From: Lachnospiraceae bacterium
GTDB lineage: Bacteria; Bacillota; Clostridia; Lachnospirales; Lachnospiraceae
Assembly: GCA_030526195.1 (NCBI GenBank)
Contig: JAUNDG010000005.1
Location: forward strand, 1 to 51,154
Reading direction: 5' to 3'
DNA length: 51,154 nt
Shown: positions 3,768 to 28,355 of the stretch, piece after piece
Position numbering within the stretch: position 1 is the first letter of the stretch
Layout of the letters: every line of letters begins with the position of its first letter
Notes under the pieces: model-generated
What the model saw: only the letters and a program-made list of their open reading frames with translations
The model's database searches: none
Told to the model about the DNA's origin: nothing
Position numbers and translations under genes: made by a program

Positions 3768-3782
3768 GAGGGAGGAGACGAA

Positions 3783-6057: not shown

Positions 6058-6173
6058 CCTCTTGTAATTAAATATCGATTTTCTTTTGAGGAAAAAAGGG
6101 GGCGTTAACCACTATTTTGTTGGGTGCATTCTTTTTTCCTCATTTTTTAAGAAAAGAAATAGGATGGGAGATT

Positions 6174-8447: not shown

Positions 8448-8450
8448 GTT

Positions 8451-10282: not shown

Positions 10283-10336
10283 AGCAACAATAAGACAAAA
10301 ATGATGGCCTAAATAGAATAATTGCTCAAAAAAGAC

Positions 10337-10365
10337 TTGAAAAATAAAAAGACGGGTGATATTAT
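10337..10365 (+). promoter_or_regulatory. Sigma-A-type promoter of the BMP lipoprotein gene
   Basis: TTGAAA (10337-10342), 17-base spacer, TATTAT (10360-10365). The start codon at 10430 gives a leader of about 60 bases with GGGAGG as ribosome-binding site. Confidence 0.7.
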
Positions 10366-10429
10366 CTGTTTGAACCGAAGCGAAGGGAAAAGCGTTTCGG
10401 AATACACAAACGGAAATGGGAGGAATTGT

Positions 10430-12025: not shown

Positions 12026-12081
12026 ATTCAGCCTATAAATTGGGAAATTCAATAGATGTTTTGAACAATAGAGGAGGAGAA

Positions 12082-14199: not shown

Positions 14200-14659
14200 A
14201 CTGACGATAGACGGAAAAGAATACAGCTTTGATAAAGACCCGACAATACGTCTTCTCGATATCTTGAGAGAAGATCTCAATAAAACCGGCGTCAAGGAAG
14301 GGTGCGGCGAAGGTGAATGCGGTGCCTGCAGTGTGCTCATCAATGGCCGTCTGACAAACTCCTGCCTGGTGGCTGCCGGCAGCGTGATGGGAGAAGAGAT
14401 TATCACCATTGAAGGGTTGCGGGAAACCGAGGCTTTTAAAGTGCTGGATCAGGCCTTTGCCGATGCGGGAGCTGTTCAGTGCGGTTTCTGTATCCCGGGG
14501 ATGATCATGGCAGGCCATGCTCTGTTGTTACAGAATCCGCATCCCACGGAAGCTGAAGTGAGACGGGGTATTTCCGGTAATCTGTGTCGCTGCACCGGTT
14601 ATAACACCATTGTGCGAGCCATTTTTCTGGCAGCGGAAAGGGGGGACGGCGTATGGTAG
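14192..14659 (+). CDS. Molybdenum hydroxylase 2, [2Fe-2S] subunit
   Basis: A 155-residue subunit with two [2Fe-2S] clusters. GCGEGECGACSVLING supplies three Cys of the ferredoxin-like domain, and QCGFCIPGMI and LCRCTGYNTIV the Cys of the helical domain; here the second motif is canonical. ATG at 14192 is used because it gives the standard N-terminus (MIKLTIDGKEY), overlaps the preceding gene by 8 bases, and has TGAGGAGG upstream. It overlaps the FAD gene by 7 bases. Confidence 0.92.
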   Translation: MIKLTIDGKEYSFDKDPTIRLLDILREDLNKTGVKEGCGEGECGACSVLINGRLTNSCLVAAGSVMGEEIITIEGLRETEAFKVLDQAFADAGAVQCGFCIPGMIMAGHALLLQNPHPTEAEVRRGISGNLCRCTGYNTIVRAIFLAAERGDGVW

Positions 14660-15495
14660 CTTATTATCCTGAAACGATTATGGAAGCTGTGTCCCTGCGA
14701 AAAGACCATCCCGGCGCCACAATCTATGCCGGGGGGACCGATCTCATGGTCACAAAGAAGATTGGTGAACATGTCATTTTCGTGACTCATGTGGAGGAAA
14801 TGCGGACACTGACCCGGGATGAAAATGGCCTGACCATCGGGGCGGCTGTGCCTTATGTTGAAATTCTGGCATCGCATGAGGTGCCGGAGATCATCAAGGA
14901 TGTGATCGTGGACATTGCCTCTCCCGCCATTCGCAGTCGCGGCACTGTGGCAGGCAATATCTGCAATGCCTCGCCGGCCGGTGATACGCTGCCTATGCTG
15001 CATGCCCTTGATGCTGTGGTGTGTCTGGCCTCTGCCGGGGATGACGGAGTTGTCTGCCGTCAAATGCCCATCGGTGAGTTTGTGTTGGGGGTTCGCCGCA
15101 CGGCTCTTCAGGAAAATGAGGTGGTGACCGCCATTAAGATTCCGGCTGATGCGTTGACTGAAAACAACCTTTATGCGTATAAAAAAGTCGGCGCCCGACG
15201 GGCGGAAGCGATTTCCAAACTGTCATTTTTCGGTCGGGCAGCATTTGGCGGCGAACGGATCACAACATTCCGAACAGCCTTTGGTTCGGTGTTTATCATA
15301 ACGGCGGTATCGCCGGAAGCCAGTCGTCTGGTGGAAGGTATGACAAAGGCGGAATTGGCTCAAAAACGAGAAGAAATATCGGAAATGTGCCTGAAAAATG
15401 TCAAACCTATCGATGATCAGCGCTCAAATGCCGCTTATCGCGCATTAGCAGCCCGTAATCTTTTGAAGGACTTTCTGGATAAGGTGACGGAGTAA
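14653..15495 (+). CDS. Molybdenum hydroxylase 2, FAD subunit
   Basis: A 280-residue flavoprotein. FAD loops are YAGGTDLMVTKK near residue 27 and RGTVAGNICNASPAGDTLP near 95. It completes operon 2 (Mo-FeS-FAD) with overlapping starts, so the three proteins are translated in a coupled way. No clear hairpin-plus-T-run terminator is seen before the amidohydrolase promoter at 15635, so some read-through is possible. Confidence 0.9.
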   Translation: MVAYYPETIMEAVSLRKDHPGATIYAGGTDLMVTKKIGEHVIFVTHVEEMRTLTRDENGLTIGAAVPYVEILASHEVPEIIKDVIVDIASPAIRSRGTVAGNICNASPAGDTLPMLHALDAVVCLASAGDDGVVCRQMPIGEFVLGVRRTALQENEVVTAIKIPADALTENNLYAYKKVGARRAEAISKLSFFGRAAFGGERITTFRTAFGSVFIITAVSPEASRLVEGMTKAELAQKREEISEMCLKNVKPIDDQRSNAAYRALAARNLLKDFLDKVTE

Positions 15496-15735: not shown

Positions 15736-17166
15736 ATGGGAAAAATTTTAATCAAAAATGCTGACGCGGTCATTACCTGCGATCATCAGGACAGAATCCT
15801 GAAGGGTTGCGATATTCTGATCGACGACAACAAGATCGCAAAGATTGCACCGGGTATCGAATGTCCGGATGCGGAAGTGATTGACGGCAAGGGTAAATTC
15901 GTTTATCCGGGTCTGATCAACACACATCATCATTTACTTCAGGCTTTCACAAGAAATATCCCGCTTATTCAGGAATATGAACTTTTCGACTGGCTGCTTT
16001 ACCTGTACAAGGTATGGGAAAGAGTCCGTCCGGATTATATGTATCTGAGCGCTATGGTCGACATGGCTGAATTTGTAAAATTCGGTGGTACAACACTGTT
16101 TGACCAGCACTTCGCTTTCCCGAGAAGCTCAGGCAGAGAAATCATCGACAGCGAATTCCGTGCTGCCGAAGAAATCGGTCTTCGTTTCCATGCCGGCCGC
16201 AGCTGCTTCACACGCGGCAAAGAAGACGGTGGTCTTCCGCCCATGGAACTGATCGAAACCACACAGGAAACTCTGGACGATTGCACACGTCTGATCGAGA
16301 AATATCACGATCCGAACCCGTTCTCTATGAGACAGGTTGTTGTGGCTCCGTGCTCACCGTTCTCAGTCACAACAGATGTTATGGTGGAATCCGCCAAGCT
16401 GGCTCGTGACAAGAATGTCCGCCTCCATACACATCTTTGCGAAACACGTGACGAAGAAAGATACTGCCTCGAAGTCTACGGCGACAGACCGCTTGACTGG
16501 GCTGAAAAGTGCGGCTGGATGGGCAGCGATGTCTGGTATGCTCACGGTATCCATTTCACAGATGATGAAGTTCGTCGTCTGGCTGAAACCAAGACCGGAG
16601 TTTCTCACAACCCGGTTTCCAACATGAAGCTGGCTTCAGGTATCTGTAAGGTACCGCTTATGCTGGAACTTGGTGTTCCGGTTGGTCTGGCTGTTGACGG
16701 CAACGGCTCCAACGATGACTCCAACCTTCTGGCTGACATCCGTGTCTGCTACCTGCTGCATCGTCTCAATGCCAGCAAGGAGATGTCCTTCGCTATCGAC
16801 GGCGAACCGGGCCATGAACTGACCGACAAGGCCAGACTTCACGCTCCGTCAGGTTATGACTGCCTCAAACTGGCCACAGTCGGCAGCGCTGAACTGCTGG
16901 GTCGTACCGATATCGGTCGTCTGGAAGAAGGTATGGCAGCTGACCTCTTCATGCTGGATGTTAACCAGCTGGATTATGTCGGCGGTCTGCTTGATCCGGC
17001 TGCCTTCCTGGGCACCATCGGCTACAGCCGTCCGGTTTGGATGACAATGGTCAACGGCAAGATCGTCTGGAAAGACAACAAGCTGACAGGTATCGACGAA
17101 GAAAAGATGAGAGTCGAAGCTGCTGCTCGCGTGGCCAAGGTTTACGAAAATCTGCCGACAGAATAA
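15736..17166 (+). CDS. Amidohydrolase, 8-oxoguanine/hydroxyatrazine deaminase type
   Basis: A 476-residue cytoplasmic metal-dependent hydrolase of the amidohydrolase superfamily (SsnA/AtzB/8-oxoguanine deaminase branch). Metal ligands are visible: HHH in GLINTHHHLL (~residue 62), His in LHTHLCE, His in YAHGIHF and Asp in AVDGNGSNDD. The block GKEDGGLPP and the following APCSPFSVT are typical of the deaminases for 8-oxoguanine and related aminoheterocycles. It would remove an exocyclic amino group or hydrolyse a C-N bond of a purine-like ring. It lies between two molybdenum hydroxylases and the methyl-transfer-like genes and shares an operator-like sequence with the TetR gene. Exact substrate unknown; codons indicate high expression. 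Confidence 0.85.
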   Translation: MGKILIKNADAVITCDHQDRILKGCDILIDDNKIAKIAPGIECPDAEVIDGKGKFVYPGLINTHHHLLQAFTRNIPLIQEYELFDWLLYLYKVWERVRPDYMYLSAMVDMAEFVKFGGTTLFDQHFAFPRSSGREIIDSEFRAAEEIGLRFHAGRSCFTRGKEDGGLPPMELIETTQETLDDCTRLIEKYHDPNPFSMRQVVVAPCSPFSVTTDVMVESAKLARDKNVRLHTHLCETRDEERYCLEVYGDRPLDWAEKCGWMGSDVWYAHGIHFTDDEVRRLAETKTGVSHNPVSNMKLASGICKVPLMLELGVPVGLAVDGNGSNDDSNLLADIRVCYLLHRLNASKEMSFAIDGEPGHELTDKARLHAPSGYDCLKLATVGSAELLGRTDIGRLEEGMAADLFMLDVNQLDYVGGLLDPAAFLGTIGYSRPVWMTMVNGKIVWKDNKLTGIDEEKMRVEAAARVAKVYENLPTE

Positions 17167-17230
17167 TCGGACAATATTTTGATTTTTCGCAGGCAGAGGC
17201 ATCTGCCCCAGCCTGCTTTACAAGACTTAC

Positions 17231-17956
17231 ATGACACTGATAAATCAACCTAACGAGGGCGGACTCAGAGTCCTGTTGGCCTGCGATATGCTCAAGAATG
17301 AGTTGCAGTCGCTGCTGGAAAAAGGATTGTTTGAGGGGGAAGTGGTCTGGATGGAGAAAGGACTCCATGAATATCCGGATCAACTCCGCACAGCTCTGCA
17401 GGAGGAGATTGACAAGTGGGATGAAAAAGCGGATCAGATCCTGCTGGCCTACGGGCTTTGTGGTAATGGTCTTCTGGGGCTGACAAGCCATCATGCTTCA
17501 CTTGTCATTCCGAATTTTGATGATTGCATCCGATGCCTGCTTTCAACGAAAGCGGGGATGGATATCCCGATGGACCCGTCGGCTCTGTATTACACGGCAG
17601 GCTGGCTTGACCTTGAGGATTCCATGTTATCGGAAAATACGCGCTATATGCAGACATACGGCCCTGTTAAGGGATTGAAGATTATCAAGAGTATGTTCAA
17701 GCATTATAAATATGTGCGTATGGTCGAAACCGGCCAATATGATGTGGATGATGCCATTCGACAGGTGACCCCCATGGCGGAGAAGATCGGCCTGGAATGC
17801 CGGCGCGAGCCGGGAAGCCTTCGTGTTTACAAAGAGTTTCTCAAGGGAAACGTGTCCGATGAATTCATCATCACAAAACCCGGTGAAACGATCGGAGAAG
17901 CACATTTTGCCAACAGAGCCAGATGTGATTTTGATCATAAGAATCTGATGTCGTAA
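17231..17956 (+). CDS. DUF1638 domain protein
   Basis: A 241-residue soluble protein. It matches the DUF1638 family by the pattern LLAYGLCGNGLLGL (near residue 80) and VIPNFDDCIRCLL (near 100), with conserved Cys at these places. No biochemical activity is established to my knowledge. The family is best known to me from methanogens and anaerobes near corrinoid methyltransferase genes, which fits this neighbourhood. It starts 64 bases after the amidohydrolase, with only a weak hairpin (GCAGG/CCTGC region) between, and may be co-transcribed with it. Codon use is less biased than in the flanking genes. Confidence 0.75.
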   Translation: MTLINQPNEGGLRVLLACDMLKNELQSLLEKGLFEGEVVWMEKGLHEYPDQLRTALQEEIDKWDEKADQILLAYGLCGNGLLGLTSHHASLVIPNFDDCIRCLLSTKAGMDIPMDPSALYYTAGWLDLEDSMLSENTRYMQTYGPVKGLKIIKSMFKHYKYVRMVETGQYDVDDAIRQVTPMAEKIGLECRREPGSLRVYKEFLKGNVSDEFIITKPGETIGEAHFANRARCDFDHKNLMS

Positions 17957-18128
17957 CAGCGACCGCTGTGCACGTGATAGTGCCTGCTGTCGGCAAGGCA
18001 GAAGATGAGATACCGGCCTGATATTTTGTACTCGAGCGGAGACTGGGGAAGGGGCATATCATTAAGCAGGAAAGATATGCTGCTGTAGACCGCTTATGAT
18101 AAACCATTTACTAAAGGAGACCTTTTTT

Positions 18129-19490
18129 ATGACAGGAAAGGAAAAATTATTTGCCACATTAAGACATGAAGAAGTCACACAGGCCCCGTGGGTTCCGTTC
18201 GCAGGTGTTCATGCCGGTTTCATCAAAGGCTACACAGCTACAGAAATCCTGACAGATGCTGATAAGCTGTATGAATGTCTGATGGAAGCCAACAAACTGT
18301 ACATGCCGGATGGCCAGCCGATCGCTTTCGACCTTCAGCTGGAAGCTGAACAGCTTGGTTGCGGTCTGATGTGGGCCGATGATAACCCGCCCAGCGTCAC
18401 CACACATCCGTGGGAAAATGAACCGGATTACTCCAAGGACATCACAAACACCGGCCGTATCAAACTGGTTATGGATGTGGCTGCCCGTATGAAAGAATCT
18501 GTTGGTGAAACAACAGCTCTTTATGGTCTGTTCTGCGGTCCGTTCACTCTGATGTCTCATTTAAGAGGTACAAACCTGTTCTTCGATATGAAGAAGAATC
18601 CGGACCTTGTTAAGGAAATGCAGAAATACATCGTTAAACAGTGCAAACTGATGATCGATTGGTATGATGAAGTTGGCATGGACGTTATCGTTCCGGTTGA
18701 CCCGCTTATCTCCCAGATCTCTGCTAAGCATTTCCTGGCTTACATGACTGAACCGTACACAGAAATCTTCGATTACATTCGCAGCAAAGGTAAATTCTCA
18801 GCCTTCTTCGTTTGCGGTAATGCTGAACGTAACCTTGAAGTTATGTGCCAGACAAAACCGGATGCCATCTCCATCGACGAGAACATCCCGATGGCCAGAG
18901 CTAAAGCTATCACAGACCAGTACAATGTTGTTATCGGCGGCAACATCCCGCTGACAACCACAATGCTGTTCGGTAACCAGATGGACAACATGAAGTTTGT
19001 TGTTGATATGGTTGACAGCCTTGACATTCCGAACAAGAACCTGGTTATTGCTCCGGGCTGCGATATGCCGTATAACGTACCGGTAGAAAATGGTATCGCT
19101 GTTTCCAAGGCTGCTAAGGATCTTGATGGCACTCGTGAACTGGTTAAGAACTATGAAGCCGTTGACGATGATGTTGATGTCGAACTGCCGGATTACGACA
19201 ATCTGGACAGACCGCTGCTTGAGGCCTGCACACTTGACTCCGCTCAGTGCGCTGCCTGCGGTTATATGTGGGCTATGGTTATGGACGCCAAGGAAAAATA
19301 TGGCGACCGTATCGATGTTGTGGAATACAAATACAACGACAAGGTTAACATCGCCCGTGACAAGAAGTTGGGTCTGACAAATCTGCCGACTCTGGTAATC
19401 GATGGTGTGCCGAAATATGTCTCCATCATTCCGGACCACGAAGAATTCTTCGCTTACATTGATGAAGTTCTGAAGAAATACGAAAAATAA
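18129..19490 (+). CDS. URO-D-family methyltransferase-like protein fused to a thioredoxin-like domain
   Basis: A 453-residue protein in two parts. Residues ~1-345 are the uroporphyrinogen-decarboxylase (URO-D) barrel in its MtaA/MtbA-like branch, which transfers methyl groups from corrinoid proteins to thiols or pterins. The usual zinc motif HxCG reads FFVCG here: residue 227 is Phe where His is expected, while Cys229 and Cys311 (in APGCDMP) remain. Residues ~365-453 resemble a thioredoxin fold, with CAAC at 374-377 and a cis-Pro-like loop NLPTLVIDG. Such a fusion is unusual. Start chosen for AAAGGAGA 8 bases upstream. Codons are strongly biased, so it should be abundant. Whether it is catalytic without the His is open. 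Confidence 0.78.
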   Translation: MTGKEKLFATLRHEEVTQAPWVPFAGVHAGFIKGYTATEILTDADKLYECLMEANKLYMPDGQPIAFDLQLEAEQLGCGLMWADDNPPSVTTHPWENEPDYSKDITNTGRIKLVMDVAARMKESVGETTALYGLFCGPFTLMSHLRGTNLFFDMKKNPDLVKEMQKYIVKQCKLMIDWYDEVGMDVIVPVDPLISQISAKHFLAYMTEPYTEIFDYIRSKGKFSAFFVCGNAERNLEVMCQTKPDAISIDENIPMARAKAITDQYNVVIGGNIPLTTTMLFGNQMDNMKFVVDMVDSLDIPNKNLVIAPGCDMPYNVPVENGIAVSKAAKDLDGTRELVKNYEAVDDDVDVELPDYDNLDRPLLEACTLDSAQCAACGYMWAMVMDAKEKYGDRIDVVEYKYNDKVNIARDKKLGLTNLPTLVIDGVPKYVSIIPDHEEFFAYIDEVLKKYEK

Positions 19491-19516
19491 TCATTAATTG
19501 ATTCGAGAGAAAAAAC

Positions 19517-21151
19517 ATGAGCCTTCTTGAAATCGCATCGGCCGGTGTGACGGTCGAGATCAATTCAAATGAAAGCCTGTTGGATGCCATCCGTAAAGCG
19601 GATGGCATCCGTTTCGAATCACCCTGCAACGGCCGCGGCACCTGCGGCAAATGCAAGGTGATTTTACGTTCAGGTGACCTGATTCCTTTAACCGCCAGTG
19701 AGAAAAAGAAACTGACGGCTGAAGAAGAAGCCGGCGGTGTCCGTCTGGCTTGCTGTGCTTACGTGGCTGAAGGCTGCGACAAGGTTGTGATCGACTTCCC
19801 GGATAAGGAAGAGAAAGCCGTTGTCCTGGCTGATGCCGACTACCACAAAACCGTTAAGGATCCGCTTTTCTCCGTGAAGGGCGAGAAGGGCTACGGGATT
19901 GCCGTTGACATCGGCACCACCACTGTGGCCGCTGTACTTCTTGATCTGACAAACGGTGAGACAATTGCCCGAACATCCTCCGTGAATCCCCAGACGGTTA
20001 TCGGCGGTGATGTTCTTTCCCGTATCGCTTACACCATTTCCGACAGCACCGGGACTGAAAAGTGCCAGAAGCTGATCGTGGAATGTTTAAATACCATGAC
20101 GGATGAGATGCTGGCCAAGACCGGCGTTGATGTCCGTGACCTGAAGGGCTATGTCATTGCCGCGAACTGCACCATGCTTCACCTTCTGCTGAACGTGGAT
20201 CCCAGTTCCCTGGCCAGAGCACCCTTCAAACCGGTTTTCACAGCCGGTCAGTTTAAAATGGCTTCCGATATCGGTCTCTGCCCGCAGAATCCGGAAGCTC
20301 AGCTCTACTGCCTGCCGTCCGTCTCCGCCTATATCGGCGCGGACATCACAGCCGGCATCTACATGAGCGAAATCTATAAGACAGATAAGAACATCATGTT
20401 CATCGATATCGGCACCAACGGCGAAATCGTGCTTTCACGTGCCGGCGCCCTGTATGCCTGCTCCTGCGCCGCAGGTCCGGCTTTGGAGGGTATGAACATT
20501 TCCTGTGGTATGCGTGCCGCCGAAGGGGCTATCGAGAGAGTTGCTTTCAAGGGCGATCATCTTGAAGTTGGCGTGATCGGTGATGCCGAACCTAAGGGGA
20601 TCTGTGGCAGCGGTGTTCTGGAAACATTGTCTGCTCTGCTGCGCAGCGGTGCTGTTAACAGAGCCGGTAAGATTTCAAAGAAATCCCGCATTCCGGAAAG
20701 CTACTTCGAGATTGAAGAAGAGGGCAAACGGGAACGCGGATATTACATCTATCGCGGCAAAGAAGACATCAGTTTCTCACAGGGTGATATCCGTCAGATT
20801 CAGCTGGCCAAGGGTGCGATCCTGTCCGGCTTTGAATCGCTGATTCAGAGAAGCGGTCTGACCTTTGACGATCTTGATGAGGTTATCATTGCCGGTCAGT
20901 TTGGGTCTCATCTGAAGGCTGAAACATTGACAGATGTGGGCATCCTGCCGGTGGAAACACTGGATAAGGTGCGTTATATCGGCAATTCCTCACTGTCCGG
21001 TGCCATCAGTGTGTTCCTGGATAAGAGTCTGGCCGACCTCTATGAAGAATTGAGCAAAAACGTGGACTACGTTGAACTTGGTACCATGGAAGGCTATAAT
21101 GAACTCTTCCTTGAATGCCTGACATTCCCGGATATTGCAGAAAAAGAGTAA
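19517..21151 (+). CDS. Ferredoxin-ASKHA protein, RACo-like corrinoid activator
   Basis: A 544-residue protein of the reductive activator family (RACo/RamA-like, DUF4445). The N-terminal [2Fe-2S] domain has Cys37, Cys43 and Cys46 in PCNGRGTCGKC and Cys79/Cys80 in LACCAYV. The middle and C-terminal parts are an ASKHA ATPase fold, with the phosphate loop VDIGTTTVAAVLLDL near residue 132 and FIDIGTNGEIVL near 297, then ACSCAAGPALEGMNIS. These proteins use ATP to reduce an inactive Co(II) corrinoid on a partner protein to Co(I). No corrinoid-binding protein is present in the window, so the partner is encoded elsewhere or is something else. It lies 26 bases after the URO-D gene, probably in the same operon. 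Confidence 0.88.
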   Translation: MSLLEIASAGVTVEINSNESLLDAIRKADGIRFESPCNGRGTCGKCKVILRSGDLIPLTASEKKKLTAEEEAGGVRLACCAYVAEGCDKVVIDFPDKEEKAVVLADADYHKTVKDPLFSVKGEKGYGIAVDIGTTTVAAVLLDLTNGETIARTSSVNPQTVIGGDVLSRIAYTISDSTGTEKCQKLIVECLNTMTDEMLAKTGVDVRDLKGYVIAANCTMLHLLLNVDPSSLARAPFKPVFTAGQFKMASDIGLCPQNPEAQLYCLPSVSAYIGADITAGIYMSEIYKTDKNIMFIDIGTNGEIVLSRAGALYACSCAAGPALEGMNISCGMRAAEGAIERVAFKGDHLEVGVIGDAEPKGICGSGVLETLSALLRSGAVNRAGKISKKSRIPESYFEIEEEGKRERGYYIYRGKEDISFSQGDIRQIQLAKGAILSGFESLIQRSGLTFDDLDEVIIAGQFGSHLKAETLTDVGILPVETLDKVRYIGNSSLSGAISVFLDKSLADLYEELSKNVDYVELGTMEGYNELFLECLTFPDIAEKE

Positions 21152-21160
21152 TGGCATAAC

Positions 21161-21204
21161 GCCTGTAACAGGCATCATGTGATGGCGCCCCGGTGGCGTC
21201 ATCA
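21161..21204 (+). other. Two consecutive hairpins before the DUF5714 gene
   Basis: GCCTG/CAGGC (21161-21173) and TGATG-g-CGCC paired with GGCG-t-CATCA (21180-21204), followed by a weak T-rich stretch. They may act as a partial terminator or an mRNA processing site that lowers expression of the genes downstream. Confidence 0.45.
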
Positions 21205-21251
21205 TATTTAGCCAAATAGTGGACATTGTCCGATAATAAGGAGGGATACAA

Positions 21252-21848
21252 ATGGCGGGTTTAACAGAAAAAGATATGGCGACCTTTGATGATATTCGGG
21301 ATAATTGCCTGGCCATTTTTAAAGAAAGACCCACAACCGATCCGGTGGCAATTGCTTTTGAACTGATGAACCGTGAGGATGTGCCGATGCATTTCCCCTT
21401 CCATCATCTGATCGTACCGGCGGCTCTGTTAACGGCAGCAGCTGTGTCTCGCGGTGATGACTTTGAGAAACTGGAAAAACGGCTTGCTGTAGCGGTGGAC
21501 CGTTCAAAGAATATTCTCGGCGGCTTCTGTGGTTTCTACGGAGCCTGCGGAGCCTCTGTGGGCACCGGCATTTTCATGAGTATCATGACCGATTCAAGCC
21601 CTATGTCCACCACAACCTGGAGCTGGTGTAATGAAGCCACAGCCAAAACCTTAGGCAAACTGGCGGAACTTGGTGGCCCTCGTTGCTGCAAACGCTCTGT
21701 TTTTGGCGTGTTGACTGAGATTGTGCCCTATGCTAATGAAAAACTTGGGACAACCATGACACTGCCTGAAAGTGTGACCTGTACCTTCTATGAACGTAAC
21801 CGGGAATGCAAGAAGACGGCCTGCCCGTTCTATCCGAAGGAATCCTAA
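21252..21848 (+). CDS. DUF5714 domain protein
   Basis: A 198-residue soluble protein, recognised by MHFPFHHLIVPAALLTAAA (near residue 57), GGFCGFYGACGASVGTGIFMSI (near 90), GGPRCCKRSVF (near 138) and a C-terminal Cys pair in NRECKKTACPFYP. The eight or so Cys suggest metal or Fe-S binding. No function is known to me. It starts behind AAGGAGGG and is followed 15 bases later by the lipoyl-like gene. Placement with ASKHA, URO-D and DUF1638 genes suggests a role in the same methyl or corrinoid process (inference). Confidence 0.75.
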   Translation: MAGLTEKDMATFDDIRDNCLAIFKERPTTDPVAIAFELMNREDVPMHFPFHHLIVPAALLTAAAVSRGDDFEKLEKRLAVAVDRSKNILGGFCGFYGACGASVGTGIFMSIMTDSSPMSTTTWSWCNEATAKTLGKLAELGGPRCCKRSVFGVLTEIVPYANEKLGTTMTLPESVTCTFYERNRECKKTACPFYPKES

Positions 21849-21863
21849 AGAGGAGTCAAAACT

Positions 21864-22157
21864 ATGAGAGTACCCATCATTGTGCCGAATGAAGCGATGC
21901 CCAAGAAAGATCCGGAGCATCCCTGCCCCTGCCAGAATAAGGTGATGGAGCTGGAATATAAGACCTGCCTTATGATGTGGACCTGCGCGGAAGGGGATTA
22001 CGTGACCGAGGGTCAGGTGATCTGCGAGGGTGAAGTGGAAAAGAAGGCATTGGAATTCCGCTCACCTGCATCCGGCCGTCTGGTGGATTGTCAGGTCGAG
22101 GATGACGATGAATTCAAGGCCGGCGATGTGCTGGGATATATCGAGACCGACATATAA
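21864..22157 (+). CDS. Small lipoyl/biotinyl-domain protein
   Basis: A 97-residue protein. Residues ~28-97 fit a lipoyl/biotinyl beta-barrel: EGDYVTEGQVICEGEVEKKALEF, then SPASGRL and AGDVLGYIE. Aligned on the conserved SP-x-x-G turn, Lys60 in EVEKKA falls exactly at the lipoylated Lys of E2/GcvH-type domains (ETDKA), and not in the biotin motif (AMKM). The N-terminal 27 residues add CPC (Cys21, Cys23). It is a stand-alone carrier domain with no dehydrogenase or glycine-cleavage gene nearby, which is unusual. A role as swinging arm for a methyl or redox group is speculative. Confidence 0.7.
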   Translation: MRVPIIVPNEAMPKKDPEHPCPCQNKVMELEYKTCLMMWTCAEGDYVTEGQVICEGEVEKKALEFRSPASGRLVDCQVEDDDEFKAGDVLGYIETDI

Positions 22158-22170
22158 ACGACAGAAAGAG

Positions 22171-23154
22171 GTGAATGTCATAAGCACCGACAACCATAAC
22201 AATATTGAGATGTACCTGGTGTCCGGGTTCCTCGGCTCCGGGAAGACCAGCTTCCTTCAGAATATGCTGACCCATTTACCCAACAGCCGCGTTGGCGTGA
22301 TCGTCAATGAATTCGGCAGTATCGGTATTGATGGGACGGTCATTCAGAAGGGTGAACTGACGATTCAGGAGATCAACAACGGCTCCATTTTCTGTGCCTG
22401 CCTGAAGGGCGGATTCACTAGAACACTGGCGGCTTTTTTGTCACAGCCGGTGGATTATCTCTTTGTAGAGGCTTCCGGTCTGGCTGATCCGGACAACATG
22501 GAAACCTATTTTCTTCAGGTTGAAAAAATGATGCTGAAGAAGCCAGAAGTGACACGGCGCTACAATTATCGTGGCGGTATCTGCGTGGCGGATGCGGTGA
22601 ATTTTGAGGATTATCTGGATATTTTCCCGGTGGTGGAAAGCCAGATCCAGAAGAGCCGGTTCATCCTGCTCAATAAGTGCGATCAGGTATCGGAGGAAGA
22701 GCAGAAGGCTTTGACTGATATGATTCTTGAGATCAATCCGGAGGCCTGTGTCTATCCTACCAGTTACGGGAAGGTCACGCTGGATGTGCTGGAGGAAAAA
22801 CTGCTGAAGGAAGATCCCCATGCGGAATCTCTCAACACACCCTGGAATCGACCGGTGACTTATATCGTGGACATGCCGGTGCGTGACACCGCGGTGCCGG
22901 TGCATAAGTTCTGCCGGAAAATCGCCCCGCTGACTATCCGCATGAAGGGTTTTGCCCCGGTGGGGGATGGCCTGTGCCATGTGGAGGCGGTGTCCACAGA
23001 GATCGTGTTTGAGGATATGGCCAAAGACGAGGCGCCGCATGCGAAGCTGAAGCTGGTACTCATCGGCCGGGAGGATCGCCTGACACAGGAGGCCATCGAA
23101 GAGGCCTGGCGCACATTCTTTGACAGTGAAATAGTGATGGTCAAAGACTGGTAA
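22171..23154 (+). CDS. CobW/G3E-family GTPase (metallochaperone type)
   Basis: A ~327-residue GTPase of the COG0523/CobW group, which delivers metals (Co, Zn, Ni) or helps cofactor insertion. Walker A is GFLGSGKTSF, switch region VDYLFVEASGLADP, and base recognition NKCD. The family metal motif CxCC is altered: NNGSIFCACLKGG retains a CxC shifted by two positions. C-terminal CobW_C-like domain from ~residue 220. The start is uncertain: AAAGAGG runs into a GTG at 22171, an ATA sits at ideal spacing at 22180, and the first ATG (22210) has no ribosome-binding site though it still includes Walker A. The GTG is used here. It follows the lipoyl-like gene by 13 bases. Confidence 0.82.
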   Translation: MNVISTDNHNNIEMYLVSGFLGSGKTSFLQNMLTHLPNSRVGVIVNEFGSIGIDGTVIQKGELTIQEINNGSIFCACLKGGFTRTLAAFLSQPVDYLFVEASGLADPDNMETYFLQVEKMMLKKPEVTRRYNYRGGICVADAVNFEDYLDIFPVVESQIQKSRFILLNKCDQVSEEEQKALTDMILEINPEACVYPTSYGKVTLDVLEEKLLKEDPHAESLNTPWNRPVTYIVDMPVRDTAVPVHKFCRKIAPLTIRMKGFAPVGDGLCHVEAVSTEIVFEDMAKDEAPHAKLKLVLIGREDRLTQEAIEEAWRTFFDSEIVMVKDW

Positions 23155-23169
23155 TCGTGATAAGATATA

Positions 23170-23200
23170 AGACGGGAGCAGCTCTTGCTCCTTCTTATTT
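23170..23200 (+). terminator. Probable intrinsic terminator after the CobW-type gene
   Basis: GGAGCA pairs with TGCTCC (loop GCTCT), with flanking AAGA/TCTT, and then TTCTTATTT. Moderate strength. It would end the amidohydrolase-to-GTPase transcription unit. Confidence 0.6.
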
Positions 23201-23309
23201 GATTAATAAGTGGACCTATTCCAGTATGTGAGTCTGTCAGAGAACGGAGATGCATCACAGGCGGACAAGAACATCTGATTCATAAAACTGCGTGTGGAAA
23301 ATAGAGGTG

Positions 23310-23340
23310 AGCCGATAACCTGCAGGTTTTGTTATCGGCT
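23310..23340 (+). promoter_or_regulatory. Perfect 10-bp hairpin upstream of the NMT1-type lipoprotein gene
   Basis: AGCCGATAAC (23310-23319) pairs perfectly with GTTATCGGCT (23331-23340). A TATTTTTAA follows, so it could be an attenuator or terminator in a leader, or a DNA operator. I recognise no known riboswitch, in particular no cobalamin B12 box, in 23155-23417. Confidence 0.5.
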
Positions 23341-23417
23341 GACAGGTATTTTTAACTCGTCGTGTTGTGCATTTTCGACAGGAAAGTGCGGACATAATAA
23401 AGGAAGGGAGATTCCGT

Positions 23418-24605
23418 ATGAGAAAACTGAAAATGAAACAGGCTGTTGTGGCCGGTATCCTGGGTGCCGCCATGGTCATGAGCATGGGCTGCGGCCAGAC
23501 GGCTCCGGCTAAAGAAGAAGCACCGGCTCAGGAAGAAGCTGCTGAAGAAGCTCCGGCAGAAGAAGCCGCCGAAGAAGAGAATGCTGTAGAAGAAGCTCCG
23601 GCTGCTGATGTCGATATGGACCTGAAGGTTGGCCTTCTGGGCACATCCATCAAACCGGTTGGCGTTCTGGTGGCTGATGCTCTCGGCTATTTCGAAGAGG
23701 AAGGCGTTAACGTTGAATTCGAAAAGGTTTCCAGTATGAACGATGCTTTCATCGCCGTGTCTACCGGTGATCTGGATGCTTATTTCTTCTCCAGCACCGC
23801 TCCGGCTACCTTCATCAGCCAGGGAACTGATACATTGCGCATCATCGGCGGTACTGTCGGTGAAGGCTCCGAAATCATGGCGCCTATTGGTACAGACATC
23901 AAGCTTGACGGTCCGGAAAGCTTCAAGGGCCTGCGCATTGCCTGCCAGATGCCGGAAACAGGTCAGATGGTTCTGAAAAACTACCTGATCGAAAATGGTC
24001 TGACCATCGGTGCTGACGGCGAAGATGCTGACGTGACCTTTATTTATGTAGAAGACGGCAACACAGCCGTTAACGGTGTTGTGAAGGGTGAATATGACCT
24101 GTGTATCACCAACCAGAGCCTTGGTTATTATGCCGCCGATCTGGGTGTTGAAGTGATCAACGCTGTTCGTGACTTTGTTGAAGTTTATCCCTGCTGCCGT
24201 CAGACCGCTTACTCCGGCACGGTTGAGAATCAGCCGGAAGCCCTGACCGCATTTGAAGTGGCTGTCTTAAGAGGTTACGAATATTACCTGCTTTACGAAG
24301 AAGAAACTCTGGACATTCTGGAAGCTTATTCCGGTGAAGACAGAGAATTCCTGAGAGGCCAGATTTACGGCACAGACACCTACACACCGGTTATGCGTGT
24401 GTCTCCGGATCCGGACAAGAAGGCTTGCGTGGCTTTCTATGAAGCTATGGTTAACCTGGGTCTTGTAGAAGTGAACGCTGATATTGACTGGAATGATTAT
24501 GTTGTGACAGACTTCTACGATGCCGCTCTGGCCATCATGGAAGAAAGAGAACCGGATACAGCTCTTTGGGTTGATATGCGCGCTTACTTTGATGCTCATA
24601 ACTGA
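23418..24605 (+). CDS. NMT1/SsuA-type ABC substrate-binding lipoprotein
   Basis: A 395-residue lipid-anchored binding protein. Signal peptide residues 1-22 with lipobox MSMGC, then an acidic Ala/Glu/Pro linker to ~residue 60, then a periplasmic-binding fold of the NMT1/SsuA/TauA kind (KVGLLGTSIKPVGVLVADALGYFEEEGVNVEF, AVSTGDLDAYFF, FKGLRIACQMPETGQMVLKNYL). This class binds sulfonates, taurine, thiamine precursors, nitrate or other small molecules, so ligand cannot be stated. The ATG at 23418 follows AGGAAGGGAG. The ATPase and permease for it follow after a terminator and a separate promoter, which allows the binding protein to be made in excess; its codon use is also much more biased than theirs. 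Confidence 0.87.
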   Translation: MRKLKMKQAVVAGILGAAMVMSMGCGQTAPAKEEAPAQEEAAEEAPAEEAAEEENAVEEAPAADVDMDLKVGLLGTSIKPVGVLVADALGYFEEEGVNVEFEKVSSMNDAFIAVSTGDLDAYFFSSTAPATFISQGTDTLRIIGGTVGEGSEIMAPIGTDIKLDGPESFKGLRIACQMPETGQMVLKNYLIENGLTIGADGEDADVTFIYVEDGNTAVNGVVKGEYDLCITNQSLGYYAADLGVEVINAVRDFVEVYPCCRQTAYSGTVENQPEALTAFEVAVLRGYEYYLLYEEETLDILEAYSGEDREFLRGQIYGTDTYTPVMRVSPDPDKKACVAFYEAMVNLGLVEVNADIDWNDYVVTDFYDAALAIMEEREPDTALWVDMRAYFDAHN

Positions 24606-24651
24606 TTAAATAAGAATCGACGTCAATGAACGTTAAAATGTGAAAGACGAT

Positions 24652-24690
24652 CCCCCGTCCTTCTGTCGTCAGACAGGGGCGGGGGTTGTT
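24652..24690 (+). terminator. Intrinsic terminator after the NMT1-type lipoprotein gene
   Basis: CCCCCG (24652-24657) pairs with CGGGGG (24680-24685) and CTGTC with GACAG inside, followed by TTGTTG. It probably reduces transcription into the ATPase gene. Confidence 0.8.
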
Positions 24691-24826
24691 GATATCAGCG
24701 ATCGGTTTGCTTTCATTGTACAAAACACGCATTGAACCGCAGCAAGCATTCCCCGCTTCAAAGATGCAGAGTCTTAAAGGGGGGATGGCCAATCCATACA
24801 TGAGGCATGAGAGATGGTCCGGCGCG

Positions 24827-24835
24827 TGGTATAAT
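24827..24835 (+). promoter_or_regulatory. Extended -10 promoter of the ABC ATPase operon
   Basis: TGGTATAAT: a consensus -10 (24830-24835) with TG one base upstream. No good -35 is present, as often for extended -10 promoters. The start codon is 29 bases further on, behind CGGAG. Confidence 0.6.
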
Positions 24836-24864
24836 GGGAGAAAACCGGATCGACGGAGAAAACT

Positions 24865-25773
24865 ATGGCAAAAATCGAATTAAAGGACGTGACATTTTCT
24901 TATGGAAATGAGTCATCACACGCCTTGTCGCATGTGAATCTGACCATCGAAAATGGTGAGTTCGTCTGTCTTGCCGGGCCTTCGGGCTGCGGTAAGACAA
25001 CACTATTAAAGCTTATGGCCGGACTTCTGACACCGGCTTCAGGTGATATAGCGGTCAATGGTGTGCCGGTGGCGGGACCGTGTACCGAGGCCGCGGTGGT
25101 GTTTCAGGAATATACCCTGTTCCCATGGATGAGCGGCCGGAAAAATGTGGCCTTTGGTATCCGCCAGACCCACAAGCACCTGTCTAAGCAGGCAATCAAT
25201 GAGAAGACGACGGCTATTCTGCGCCGTGTCGGCATGGAAGCTCAGGCGGATAAGCTGCCCGGGGCTATGTCGGGCGGTATGCGGCAGCGTGTGGCCATTG
25301 CCCGGGCGCTGGCCATGGACACAGACATCCTGCTGATGGATGAGCCCTTCGGGGCGTTGGACGCCGGTATTCGGGCGGAACTGCAGGACCTGCTGGAGGA
25401 ACTGTGGAATGCTGATGGCCGGCAGCGGAAGACGGTCATTTTCGTCACCCATGATATGGAAGAAGCGGTGCGTCTGGCGGACCGGGTCATCTATATGGAA
25501 CCGGGCCGCATTGCGGATGATATCCGGATCACCGTGGAACGGCCGCGGGCTCATGTGACCGGGGAAAGCCGGGCAAAACTGCGTAATATTCGCTGTGATC
25601 TTATCGATCGCATGTCGGGACGCAAGGTCGAATCAAGTGCTGATACGGCGACCGGTTGCGGTTGCGGAACAACTGCCCACGACATCGAGGATACGGTCGG
25701 CTGCGGTTGTCAATCAGAAACCCATGATGACCGGAATAGCGCCGGCTGCTGCTGTGGAGGAGGACGGGAATGA
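24865..25773 (+). CDS. NMT1-type ABC importer ATPase with C-terminal Cys/His repeat tail
   Basis: A 302-residue ATPase. Residues 1-~250 are a standard SsuB/TauB-type ABC domain: Walker A GPSGCGKTT (~40), Q-loop VFQEYTLFPW, signature MSGGMRQRVAIARALAM, Walker B ILLMDEPFGALD, and the H-loop FVTHDMEEAV. The last ~40 residues are extra. They contain 15-residue repeats, each beginning with GCxC and carrying a His-Asp: Cys265/Cys267 with His272, Cys280/Cys282 with His287, then Cys295-296-297. This looks like a metal- or thiol-sensing appendage and is not part of the family norm. It overlaps the permease gene by 4 bases (ATGA). Confidence 0.88.
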   Translation: MAKIELKDVTFSYGNESSHALSHVNLTIENGEFVCLAGPSGCGKTTLLKLMAGLLTPASGDIAVNGVPVAGPCTEAAVVFQEYTLFPWMSGRKNVAFGIRQTHKHLSKQAINEKTTAILRRVGMEAQADKLPGAMSGGMRQRVAIARALAMDTDILLMDEPFGALDAGIRAELQDLLEELWNADGRQRKTVIFVTHDMEEAVRLADRVIYMEPGRIADDIRITVERPRAHVTGESRAKLRNIRCDLIDRMSGRKVESSADTATGCGCGTTAHDIEDTVGCGCQSETHDDRNSAGCCCGGGRE

Positions 25774-26690
25774 AGAAGACGATATTCAGAATGATCCTGG
25801 CCCATGTGCTCCTGGCGGTGCTGGTGGTCGTGGTGTGCCTGGCCCCTCAGGCAAAAACACCGGAAGGCCGGTATTCCTTCCTGACGGCTATCGCGGTGAT
25901 CGAAGGGCTCTTTTTATTATCCATTTTCAAGCAGAAGCGCAAAGGTGAGATCGGCACAGGGGCATTTGACATCATCATGCTGGTGTGGGTTTTGTTGCTC
26001 ATCTGGGAAGTGGTGGTCAACGTGCTGCGGATGGCCCATCCGGTCCTCGTGCCGGCTCCCGAAAATGTTTTTGACACCTTCCGGCTGCGTTGGAAGGATA
26101 TGCTCATCAACATCGGCTACTCCATGCAGCTGCTCATTTTCGGCACCATGTTGGGGCTTGCATTGGCGGTCTTTTTGGGGTTATTCTGTGGGTGGAATAA
26201 ACGACTGAAAGCCTTTGCAGCGCCCATTGCCCATGTGATGGCGCCGATCCCGGCTGTGGTCCTGTCCCCTTACCTGGTGGCCATTATGCCCACCTTCAGA
26301 AGCGCCTCCGCCCTGGTGGTGCTCATTGGTGTGTTCTGGCCGCAGTTTATCGCCACCATCAACCGTGTGTCCTCTGTGGAGCCGCAGATCCTGGACTCAG
26401 CCCGTATGTTGGGACTGTCCCAGAGCGCCATGCTCTTTAAGGTGCTGCTCCCGTACCTGTTACCGGGCACGCTGATGGGGCTGCGTGTGACGCTGACAAC
26501 GTCCGTGCTTATGCTCAACTTCGCAGAGCTTATGGGGGCTTCCCACGGGATGGGGTATTTTATTATGAACAGTATCACCTATGCCAACTACACCCATGCA
26601 GTGGCCGGCATTCTGGTGATCGGTATCGTGGTCACCTTGCTTAACATGCTGGTGGGCATGATCCAGAAAAAATTTATCAAGTGGCATTAA
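25770..26690 (+). CDS. NMT1-type ABC importer permease
   Basis: A 306-residue membrane protein of the BPD_transp_1 family (SsuC/TauC/NrtB type). Two hydrophobic segments precede the core (residues ~8-27 and ~38-52). The core has the EAA-like loop RMLGLSQSAMLFKVLLPYLLPGTLMGLRV near residue 215. It starts inside the ATPase stop codon and is followed after 9 bases by the PadR gene, so these form one operon with shared regulation. Confidence 0.88.
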   Translation: MKKTIFRMILAHVLLAVLVVVVCLAPQAKTPEGRYSFLTAIAVIEGLFLLSIFKQKRKGEIGTGAFDIIMLVWVLLLIWEVVVNVLRMAHPVLVPAPENVFDTFRLRWKDMLINIGYSMQLLIFGTMLGLALAVFLGLFCGWNKRLKAFAAPIAHVMAPIPAVVLSPYLVAIMPTFRSASALVVLIGVFWPQFIATINRVSSVEPQILDSARMLGLSQSAMLFKVLLPYLLPGTLMGLRVTLTTSVLMLNFAELMGASHGMGYFIMNSITYANYTHAVAGILVIGIVVTLLNMLVGMIQKKFIKWH

Positions 26691-26699
26691 GGAGACATT

Positions 26700-27098
26700 A
26701 TGGACGAACAGAAACAGCTTCAGGAAGAAAATAAGGTGATGAACGGCGGCCGCCAGTGCGCCTGTGAAGGCGGGACCCTGGTCCGTTTTGTTCAGCCGCT
26801 GCTTCTCTCGCTCCTGGCAAAGGGCCCCTGCCACGGGTATGATCTGCTGCAGAAGATTTCCGCTACCCGGATGTGGGGAGAGAACCCGCCGGACAACTCC
26901 GGCGTTTATCGTGTCCTTCGTGAGATGGAGAAGAAGGGCCTGGTGACCTCGGAAATCGTGCATGAGCATAATGTGGGTCTGGGCCGCAAGGTGTATTCTC
27001 TGACAGAGGAGGGGGCCTCCTGCCGGGGCCGGTGGCTCACCACCCTGCAGAAATATCAGCAGGACCTGACGGAAGTCATCGATATGCTCAGCGAGTGA
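26700..27098 (+). CDS. PadR-family regulator with an N-terminal CxC motif
   Basis: A 132-residue winged-helix regulator. The PadR domain runs from ~residue 28: LLLSLLAKGPCHGYDLLQKI, then GVYRVLREMEKKGLV, and a wing ending VYSLTEEG. Before it, QCACEGG gives Cys20-x-Cys22, which together with Cys44 or Cys116 could bind a metal or sense redox. Located between the ABC permease (9 bases) and the second URO-D gene (194 bases), it probably controls this importer operon. The Cys motif echoes the CxC repeats on the ATPase tail. Confidence 0.83.
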   Translation: MDEQKQLQEENKVMNGGRQCACEGGTLVRFVQPLLLSLLAKGPCHGYDLLQKISATRMWGENPPDNSGVYRVLREMEKKGLVTSEIVHEHNVGLGRKVYSLTEEGASCRGRWLTTLQKYQQDLTEVIDMLSE

Positions 27099-27292
27099 AC
27101 TTAAGCAAGATCATTTTCTCGAAATCAAGACGGGTTTTTCGAAAATGGTTCATCGGATGCAGCACCATTTTTGCAGGAAATGATGGTGCTGTACCGAAAA
27201 TGATGAGGCTGATGCCGGTTCATTTTCATAAGGAAATGGGGCATTGGCCGGATGATCATGAATAATATGAAACAGGAAAAGGAGTGCTTCTT

Positions 27293-28297
27293 ATGAATAT
27301 GACACAGTGGACGGAGGCGGTGATCGCCGACAAGAATCGTATCTTTGCCCCGATCATGTATTATCCCTGCACATCGCTGGTTGGTGTGAAGGCTGTTGAT
27401 ACGGTGAAAGCCGGCGGGGCTCAGGCTATGGCAGCGGTTATGAAAGCCGCAGCGGATCGTTTCCCGGAAATGGCCATCGTTTCTACCGCTCTTGACGTGA
27501 CGGTGGATCCGGAGGCTTTTGGTGTGGCTGTTGATTATGATGAGGACCGGGCGCCTCATTGCGTCAGCTTTGTCATCAAGGATGAGGCGGATGCGGAGGC
27601 TATGACCATGCCCTCAGCCATGACAGAGCGTCAGGTGCTGCATTATGAGGCTGTTAAGGAAGCAAAGAAGCTGATGCCGGAAAAACCGGTGTTCGGCAAC
27701 CTGCTGGGTCCCTTTACACTGGCCACCAGTGTGATGAAGCTGTCCGATGCCATGCTTGGTGTTATGAAGAAGGGGCCCATGATGCATGTGGTCATTGAAA
27801 AATGCACAGAGTTTGTCATCAACAGAGCGCTGGCTTACAAGGCAGCCGGGGCGGACGGCATTTTACTGGATGAGGCCTGTGGCGGTATCATTCCGCCGAA
27901 GAAATGTGCTGAATTCTCATCTGCTTATATTAAGAAGATAGTCGAGGCGGTCCAGGATGATCAGTTTGCTGTGATGATGCATAACTGCGGCAATATTGCC
28001 CGCATGCTGGACAGCATTTTCGACACAGGCTGCCGGATGTATTCCTTCGGTAATGCGGTGGACTTCAAGCTGGCGGCAGAGAAGCTGCCGGAAGGTGCTC
28101 TGCTCATCGGTAATCTGGATCCCATGCTTCTGACAGAAGAGGACGACAACAAGGTCTACGAGGAGACCAAAGCCCTCATCGAAGCCATGGCGGATTGCCC
28201 GGGATTTGTGCCGGCACCGGGCTGCGATGTGCCCACCAATGCCCGTCTGGAATCCGTTGATGCCATGATCCGGGCTATCAAAGAGGCGAATTCCTGA
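27293..28297 (+). CDS. URO-D-family methyltransferase-like protein (MtaA/MtbA branch)
   Basis: A 334-residue URO-D-fold protein without extra domain. The zinc site of the corrinoid:thiol methyltransferases is intact: His230-x-Cys232 in MHNCGN and Cys311 in APGCDVP. In characterised MtaA/MtbA enzymes this zinc activates the thiol that accepts the methyl group. It differs from the protein at 18129, where the His is Phe. ATG at 27293 is preceded by AAAAGGAG; an in-frame GTG nine bases earlier is less likely because it abuts that site. The gene ends the island; a strong terminator follows. Co-transcription with the importer and PadR gene is possible, but the 194-base gap may hold a promoter. Confidence 0.82.
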   Translation: MNMTQWTEAVIADKNRIFAPIMYYPCTSLVGVKAVDTVKAGGAQAMAAVMKAAADRFPEMAIVSTALDVTVDPEAFGVAVDYDEDRAPHCVSFVIKDEADAEAMTMPSAMTERQVLHYEAVKEAKKLMPEKPVFGNLLGPFTLATSVMKLSDAMLGVMKKGPMMHVVIEKCTEFVINRALAYKAAGADGILLDEACGGIIPPKKCAEFSSAYIKKIVEAVQDDQFAVMMHNCGNIARMLDSIFDTGCRMYSFGNAVDFKLAAEKLPEGALLIGNLDPMLLTEEDDNKVYEETKALIEAMADCPGFVPAPGCDVPTNARLESVDAMIRAIKEANS

Positions 28298-28322: not shown

Positions 28323-28355
28323 CCTCCGCATTTTTGTAAAATGCGGAGGTTTTTT
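28323..28355 (+). terminator. Intrinsic terminator at the end of the island
   Basis: CCTCCGCATTTT pairs perfectly with AAAATGCGGAGG (loop TGT), followed by six Ts. It isolates the URO-D gene from the str operon promoter, which begins two bases later. Confidence 0.93.

Follow-up and report, generated by a model that had tools for sequence, protein, structure and literature searches.

A twelve-gene block in a Lachnospiraceae bacterium as a candidate part of a corrinoid methyltransferase system associated with purine-type genes

We analyzed the first 51,154 nucleotides of contig C23 (C23:1-51154, here called the window) from the genome of a Lachnospiraceae bacterium (2.54 Mb in 43 contigs, 96.3% complete) and, within the window, a block of twelve genes at positions 15736 to 28297. 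We propose, with a probability of roughly 60%, that this block supplies a corrinoid methyltransferase system with its functions in activation, import, and methyl handling, and that the system acts on an N-methylated purine-type heterocycle. Corrinoid methyl transfer as the function of the system as a whole is very likely; an N-methylpurine-type substrate, with 7-methylguanine or relatives of caffeine as examples, is the option that we favor with less assurance. The original prediction, made from the letters of the window, had likewise described a corrinoid or one-carbon system tied to purine-type catabolism, and this part of it stands; its statement that a corrinoid protein and a substrate methyltransferase are missing does not, since both are encoded twice on the same contig, about 69 kb downstream.

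As predicted, we found neither a corrinoid protein nor an MtaB- or MttB-like enzyme inside the block, whose products include a URO-D methyltransferase-like protein fused to a C-terminal thioredoxin-like domain (URO-D/Trx) and a RACo-type putative corrinoid activase (Table 1). A search for corrinoid proteins elsewhere in the genome, which had been put forward as a check, returned five proteins that match PF02310. Two of these five, both encoded on C23, also carry the cap domain PF02607, which has no further match in the genome. Each of the two corrinoid genes lies directly 5' of a gene for a PF05369 (MtmB) methyltransferase, MtmB1 or MtmB2 (235.1 and 233.5 bits; cut-off, 25), and a xanthine-type NCS2 permease gene starts 484 bp past MtmB1, between the two corrinoid/methyltransferase pairs. 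These genes lie about 69 to 79 kb downstream of the block. Of the parts of a three-component system, the genome therefore holds PF05369 enzymes, corrinoid partners with cap and B12-binding domains, and, in the block, the RACo domains of a putative reductive activase; the URO-D proteins are candidates for the acceptor methyltransferase. No NCBIfam model matched MtmB1 or MtmB2 at an E value of 0.001; an MttB-type substrate enzyme was considered for this region of the genome and rejected, as Pfam assigns the proteins to PF05369. Because corrinoid protein and methyltransferase are encoded twice on the contig, the lipoyl-type protein of the block need not replace a corrinoid protein, and we reject the role of stand-in carrier that had been suggested for it.

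Both MtmB proteins lack pyrrolysine (Pyl). Alignment with PDB entry 1l2q places Thr at the position of Pyl202 in MtmB1, MtmB2 also has Thr, and neither gene contains an internal stop, so that the in-frame amber codon of MtmB at position 202 is absent. Residues Q333, Y335, and E259, which we take to be the neighbors of Pyl in MtmB, were located as offsets from the amber codon in 49 Pyl-free and 9 Pyl sequences (L139 excluded; L numbers denote loci and G numbers denote genomes of the comparison sets, G000 being the genome studied here). Q333 was kept in 9/9 Pyl and 0/49 Pyl-free sequences, Y335 in 9/9 and 1/49, and E259 in 9/9 and 8/49, with our MtmB2 among those 8. MtmB1 and MtmB2 thus share their family and a corrinoid partner with the monomethylamine methyltransferase MtmBC and differ from it in the Thr that replaces Pyl and in the changed neighboring residues.

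Purine-type genes lie upstream of the block, where two molybdenum hydroxylases and a nucleoside-type importer had been predicted and were recovered. Judged by its profile matches, XdhABC is a canonical xanthine dehydrogenase set (XdhA, 807.8 bits, and XdhB, 352.8 bits, exceed their cut-offs of 780 and 310; XdhC, 198.8 bits, falls just under its cut-off of 217). The second, divergent hydroxylase has a 722-bit relative within the L048 run described below, and matches to the putative B6 ABC transporter set, the best NCBIfam hit of the BMP-type importer, also adjoin MtmB in L048, L182, L183, and L191. The block itself opens with an amidohydrolase predicted to be a purine or methylpurine deaminase, homologues of which are encoded 36 to 124 bp from MtmB in L119, L120, L135, L174, and L178.

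The association between Pyl-free MtmB and purine-type genes was measured in a phylum sample that was not selected for the block. Of 398 genomes searched for PF05369, 28 gave a match at an E value of 0.001, and 22 Pyl-free MtmB loci (15 genomes) were compared with 13 Pyl loci (12 genomes, including G385, G330, G396, and G424). Markers within 8 kb were Xdh subunits, amidohydrolases of at least 80 bits, and NCS2 permeases (together the core markers), as well as NCS1 permeases, BMP proteins, PucR, and adenosine deaminase; the marker queries came from our own window and from L121 and L137 of a second set of loci, selected from genomes with URO-D/Trx. Left out of the count were G614 (fragments under the cut-off), our own genome, G506, G616, G640, and G710 (already in the selected set), and fragmentary extras in G478 and G738. 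The counts behind the tests, like the tree labels and subclade table used below, were entered by hand. Any marker was present at 14/22 Pyl-free versus 0/13 Pyl loci (Fisher's p, 1.4e-4) and in 11/15 versus 0/12 genomes (p, 1.0e-4); for core markers, the figures were 10/22 versus 0/13 loci (p, 0.0035) and 9/15 versus 0/12 genomes (p, 0.001). G396 and G538 carry both kinds of MtmB, and their fetched Pyl-free loci have markers whereas their Pyl loci do not. Core purine genes lay within 8 kb of 27 MtmB genes (the split gene of L207 being counted twice); the nearest one shared the strand of MtmB in 26 of these 27 cases and was 36 to 239 bp away in 12. A Pfam search with ten examples confirmed PucR, NCS1, adenosine deaminase, molybdenum hydroxylase, amidohydrolase, NCS2, BMP, pterin-binding, and MttB assignments and gave no match for a protein labeled as a MetH activation domain. 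In L207 and L208 (G491), the MtmB and permease genes are apparently split into adjacent frames.

URO-D/Trx is itself linked to these genes. PF05369 matches were found in 14/42 genomes with URO-D/Trx (G424, of the pyrrolysine type only, and G407, with fragments only, included) versus 3/391 genomes of the class, these three being our own and two of the pyrrolysine type. In the genus, URO-D/Trx occurs in 3/37 genomes, all three with a Pyl-free MtmB, which itself occurs in 4/37 (p, 5e-4 including our own genome and 0.005 excluding it). Markers were present at 6/14 URO-D/Trx loci in genomes with PF05369 and at 0/27 in genomes without it. The selected set had a marker at 18/20 loci, a figure that is not independent of the query because the set was drawn through URO-D/Trx. 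In G817, a member of the genus, the contig numbers and positions of the MtmB genes coincide with those in G399 (Candidatus Equihabitans merdae, Lachnospiraceae).

Co-occurrence of the families of the block in other genomes, one of the two points on which the original prediction had staked its case, was followed by a contig scan with the URO-D/Trx protein, which gave 42 loci; L084, lacking a full URO-D/Trx, was dropped, and 41 anchored loci were counted. Within 8 kb of URO-D/Trx, MtmB was found at 8/41 loci and a CobW match at 31/41; NMT1 was near it at 4/41 (L043 to L046), three of them with MtmB. The association recurs in several arrangements. A near-complete set forms one run in L048/L135: XdhA, a BMP importer, molybdenum-hydroxylase small subunits (partly identified by eye), URO-D/Trx, a corrinoid protein, and MtmB1, followed by an amidohydrolase, XdhA2, two amidohydrolase-type matches (135 and 26 bits), TetR, a corrinoid protein, and MtmB2. 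L044 and L045 combine NMT1-ABC-PadR, a further URO-D protein, CobW, a corrinoid protein, MtmB1, URO-D/Trx, an amidohydrolase, and XdhA. L128 and L130 carry a corrinoid protein-MtmB1 pair with DUF1638, RACo, and Xdh plus an amidohydrolase or xanthine-type permease; DUF1638 adjoins MtmB or corrinoid genes in these two loci and in L132 and L133, and xanthine-type permeases are found in L130, L132, and L133. As separate observations, G415 (CSMAG_109; L121 to L124, L136, and L137) has 14 PF05369 matches, several of which have PucR, BMP, adenosine deaminase, or purine permease genes next to them, and at L179:5477-12231 lipoate ligase and glycine cleavage genes adjoin a Pyl-free MtmB that is accompanied by PucR.

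Several points weigh against the proposal. The purine link is guilt by association, and from it we infer the substrate; the methylated purine that had been suggested earlier is a candidate supported by gene context. In our own genome, the corrinoid and MtmB genes do not adjoin the block, and the amidohydrolase misses the 8-oxoguanine deaminase equivalog cut-off of NF006055 (Table 1). L043 (G391/G836), the locus most closely related to the block, has URO-D/Trx, DUF5714, the lipoyl protein, CobW, NMT1, and PadR with no purine genes near, and the only PF05369 match of that genome is an MtmB of a third clade. URO-D/Trx, CobW, DUF5714, and the lipoyl protein also stand beside MttB-type systems that lack purine markers (L052, L059, and L073), and the DUF5714-lipoyl-CobW trio occurs near other corrinoid systems, with MttB in L059 and with a Pyl MtmB in L204 (L073 and L061 have DUF5714 and CobW with no lipoyl match); because of these MttB and Pyl MtmB loci, the four proteins are probably general corrinoid helpers. 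Markers are absent from 8/22 unselected Pyl-free loci (L175, L176, L177, L180, L181, L187, L192, and L225, with L175, L176, and L225 on contigs of 3 to 5 kb), from L193, a genus member examined apart, from L125 and L138 of the selected set, and from the 8-kb surroundings of 8/14 URO-D/Trx loci in MtmB genomes, and 4 of the 14 marker-positive Pyl-free loci rely on PucR or BMP-type matches, which belong to broad families. Three genomes of the order, G852, G863, and G866, have URO-D/Trx, and the MtmB1 query matched nothing in them. The p values are optimistic because related loci lack independence, and the Pyl controls come mostly from genomes other than those of the Pyl-free loci. Two neighboring features were also seen in these loci: L043:13371-14099 encodes a membrane protein between CobW and NMT1, TauE/SafE-like by eye and with no NCBIfam match, and in a UBA1305 genome DUF5714-lipoyl-CobW (L204:16624-18635) and a pyrrolysine MtmB operon are separated by about 6 kb, a lipoate ligase lying close by.

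The markerless 8/22 loci also leave room for MtmB proteins that demethylate a non-purine amine (a quaternary amine, as MtqB does, or an N-methylnicotinate-type compound), with purine genes as neighbors through a shared role in the acquisition of nitrogen or one-carbon units. PMC13044021, published in 2026, gives the first function shown for a Pyl-free MtmB: MtqB acts on tetramethylammonium and choline. The tree in that paper covers 1,061 MtmBs, and those that fall outside named clades are Pyl-free and without known function. MtqBC resembles our proteins in pairing a Pyl-free MtmB homologue with a corrinoid protein; it differs in its quaternary amine substrate, methanogen host, and coenzyme M acceptor, whereas our clade stands with purine-type genes. 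In a quick tree with long branches, from which MtqB is absent, our MtmB1 and MtmB2 occupy separate subclades within a single clade of 35 rows, 31 of which are marker-labeled (our own, BMP-only, and PucR-only rows included); three of the four unlabeled rows are on contigs of 3 to 8 kb. This placement and the 12/27 MtmB genes with a core purine gene 36 to 239 bp away argue against a non-purine amine, which we consider unlikely. A separate six-row clade (L119 to L122, L174, and L178) is marker-linked too. Among 22 genomes in a hand-made table, 16 have the MtmB1 type, 14 the MtmB2 type, and 11 both; the presence of several MtmB paralogues in one genome would agree with specialization for different methyl positions.

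Still less likely, in our estimate, is a methyl-selenium/sulfur or organometal system resembling the mlp clusters or the Sec-assisted organometallic (SAO) system, the latter named together with MbdU in PMC13188914. URO-D thiol chemistry, thioredoxin, the Cys-rich ABC ATPase, the CxC PadR, and CobW would suit such a system, as would the HxC motif retained in the second URO-D protein and the resemblance of DUF5714 to the selenoprotein family MbdU (84 bits; cut-off, 600) and of the ABC ATPase to SaoA (217.6 bits; cut-off, 360). These scores are all far under the family cut-offs, as is that for SaoP (69.6 bits; cut-off, 295). PMC10418091 (Kountz and Balskus) describes URO-D gene clusters for methyl-selenium/sulfur, with one Mlp URO-D protein that methylates selenide in vitro. 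Type 1 mlp clusters share with our system URO-D proteins, a Ram/RACE activase, and the lack of a folate methyltransferase in the cluster; that text gives His-Cys-Cys for Mlps (several Mlps1 excepted), whereas URO-D/Trx has Phe in place of the zinc-site His of MtaA, both Cys being kept, in 42/42 sequences (our own and 41 relatives), the block has no corrinoid protein, and the substrate methyltransferase is of the MtmB type. The importer, PadR, CobW, and URO-D/Trx, moreover, lie near MtmB and purine-type genes in L044 to L046.

Where the methyl group goes in the proposed N-methylpurine system is suggested by what the genome lacks. No match to PF00809, PF01717, or PF02219 was found in our own genome, which therefore has no recognizable MetH, MetE, or MTHFR and seems to be without a methionine synthase or a methyl-folate route. 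It is accordingly very improbable that DUF1638 and RACo just reactivate a B12-dependent methionine synthase among otherwise unrelated neighbors, as the fitness data for Phaeobacter would suggest, where B12-dependent methionine synthesis requires DUF1638 and a RamA-like protein (PMC5764234 and PMC12478193) and DUF1638 shows cofitness with this synthesis (PMC5764234); the split corrinoid system of Phaeobacter and Ruegeria has the same activase-DUF1638 pairing and serves methionine synthesis or glycine betaine. With no pterin-binding, MetE, or MTHFR family match, the methyl acceptor in our genome is probably not folate, and the URO-D proteins become the candidate acceptor enzymes. PF00809, a family that takes in MetH and dihydropteroate synthase as well, is present in 25/28 MtmB genomes examined and absent from our own, G825, and G396; MetE is absent from 9/9 genomes examined and MTHFR from 3/9. 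Folate-methyltransferase-type genes lie near MtmB in L176, L178, L183, L187, L189, L225, and L134 (Pfam-checked for L176 and L187), and Acetobacterium L052 has URO-D/Trx together with such a gene, which speaks against URO-D/Trx as a simple alternative acceptor enzyme. The thioredoxin-like CxxC is present in 41/42 URO-D/Trx sequences, the remaining one stopping at a contig end. The lipoyl protein keeps a lipoylatable hairpin Lys and an N-terminal CxC in our genome and in all 4 distinct close relatives, so that a role downstream of the corrinoid protein, as methyl or electron acceptor, is possible; a thiol or lipoyl methyl acceptor is a tentative suggestion. Of 291 class genomes searched with this protein, 29 matched, including our own; the sole other strong match was in G209 (E, 1e-15), and the rest were weak or within longer frames.

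All of the families named by the original prediction were confirmed on the + strand of the block (Table 1). To the NMT1 importer that it had listed, profile matching (Pfam and NCBIfam) adds an ABC ATPase and a permease, which brings the block to twelve co-directional genes with intergenic gaps of -4 to 260 bp. A 12-pair terminator-like stem follows the final gene at 28323-28349, and the open reading frame beyond it, at 28499, is ribosomal protein S12-like by eye. The RACo-type protein has 2Fe-2S, RACo middle, and RACo C-terminal domains and scores under the NCBIfam AcsV and RamA cut-offs. The His/Cys set of DUF5714 is invariant across 6 sequences. Searches of the PDB with AlphaFold models of DUF5714 (AlphaFold 2; predicted local distance difference test score [pLDDT], 84.9) and DUF1638 (pLDDT, 76.9) gave no match at an E value of 0.001 or less, and the literature search yielded nothing on the function of DUF5714 or MbdU beyond the name MbdU in the review PMC13188914. 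The Cys-rich tail of the ABC ATPase (CGCG, CGC, and CCCGGG) is unusual and suggests metal binding.

Table 1. Features of the window and of the downstream part of contig C23, with strand and best supporting match
Feature	Position	Strand	Evidence
BMP-type (nucleoside/purine-like) importer: ATPase and two permeases	1166..4709	+	Best NCBIfam, putative B6 ABC transporter set, under cut-off
XdhA-XdhB-XdhC, xanthine dehydrogenase	6117..9799	+	NCBIfam equivalogs
BMP-type substrate-binding protein	10322..11611	+	NF047927, 48 bits, far under cut-off of 400
Second, divergent molybdenum hydroxylase (Mo, 2Fe-2S, and FAD subunits)	12040..15495	+	Mo subunit best 322.6 bits, cut-off 783.65
Amidohydrolase, 8-oxoguanine-deaminase-like	15736..17166	+	PF01979; NF006055, 495.7 bits, cut-off 532
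DUF1638, putative corrinoid-reactivation partner	17231..17956	+	PF07796, 130 bits
URO-D methyltransferase-like protein with C-terminal thioredoxin-like domain (CAAC)	18096..19490	+	PF01208; PDB 1nho match
2Fe-2S/RACo-type putative ATP-dependent corrinoid reductive activase	19517..21151	+	PF14574, 250 bits; PF17651; PF00111
DUF5714, Cys/His-rich	21252..21848	+	PF18978, 192 bits
Lipoyl-type carrier, 97 aa, N-terminal CxC	21864..22157	+	PF00364, 38.9 bits
CobW-family GTPase, metallochaperone type	22180..23154	+	PF02492, 126 bits
NMT1/SsuA-type substrate-binding protein	23415..24605	+	PF09084, 42 bits
ABC ATPase, Cys-rich C-terminal tail	24865..25773	+	Nearest NF040729 SaoA, 217.6 bits, cut-off 360
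ABC permease	25770..26690	+	TIGR01183, 70 bits, under cut-off
PadR-type regulator with CxC (CAC near N terminus)	26700..27098	+	PF03551, 54 bits
Second URO-D protein, MtaA/MtbA-like, HxC...C zinc motif kept	27284..28297	+	NF004889, 140 bits, cut-off 244; HNCG in alignment
Corrinoid protein 1	C23:97119-97808		PF02607 + PF02310, directly 5' of MtmB1
MtmB1 methyltransferase	C23:97897-99354		PF05369
NCS2 xanthine-type permease	C23:99839-101293		TIGR03173 pbuX, 326 bits, cut-off 414
Corrinoid protein 2	C23:104689-105360		PF02607 + PF02310, directly 5' of MtmB2
MtmB2 methyltransferase	C23:105447-106862		PF05369

In the system as we picture it, the substrate would be imported through BMP-type, NMT1-type, or NCS2-type transporters, and the amidohydrolase and the two molybdenum hydroxylases may process its ring. 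MtmB1 or MtmB2 would pass the N-methyl group to Co(I) of the partner corrinoid protein; a stabilized purine anion as leaving group could account for the dispensable pyrrolysine. URO-D/Trx and/or the second URO-D protein would then pass the methyl group from cobalt to an acceptor, presumed to be of the thiol type because no folate methyltransferase was found, possibly through the lipoyl carrier. RACo and DUF1638 would re-reduce inactive Co(II), and CobW may supply metal; this acceptor and the roles given to DUF5714, the lipoyl protein, and CobW are those that we infer from the gene set. The NdmABC caffeine N-demethylases are aerobic Rieske oxygenases that need O2; our system has the same predicted task, N-demethylation of purine alkaloids, whereas its proteins are unrelated to these O2-dependent enzymes. 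PMC6559788 names Rieske oxygenases as N-demethylases of purine alkaloids and mentions fecal N-demethylation (e.g., of altretamine) that was seen without an assigned mechanism. A literature search with purine and methylxanthine terms found no link to Pyl-free MtmB, within a coverage that leaves out most subscription journals and preprints, so that absence is unproven.

A wider extension, which we regard as rather doubtful in its entirety, is that the large Pyl-free MtmB clade consists of O2-independent N-methylpurine demethylases, which would be the anaerobic equivalent of NdmA/B/C and whose paralogous clades (MtmB1, MtmB2, and the third) would serve different ring positions, and that here the methyl group passes from cobalt via URO-D/Trx onto a dihydrolipoyl (thiol) carrier. 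We know of no description of such a route from cobalt through a URO-D/thioredoxin protein to a dihydrolipoyl carrier. Coffee, cocoa, tea, and RNA turnover are sources of the methylated purines that enter anoxic guts and sediments. If the proposal is true, it would provide a testable enzyme family for the anaerobic demethylation of caffeine-type and nucleobase compounds and point to a methyl acceptor besides folate or coenzyme M. It would also give a function to many Pyl-free MtmBs and bear on why some amines need pyrrolysine and others do not.

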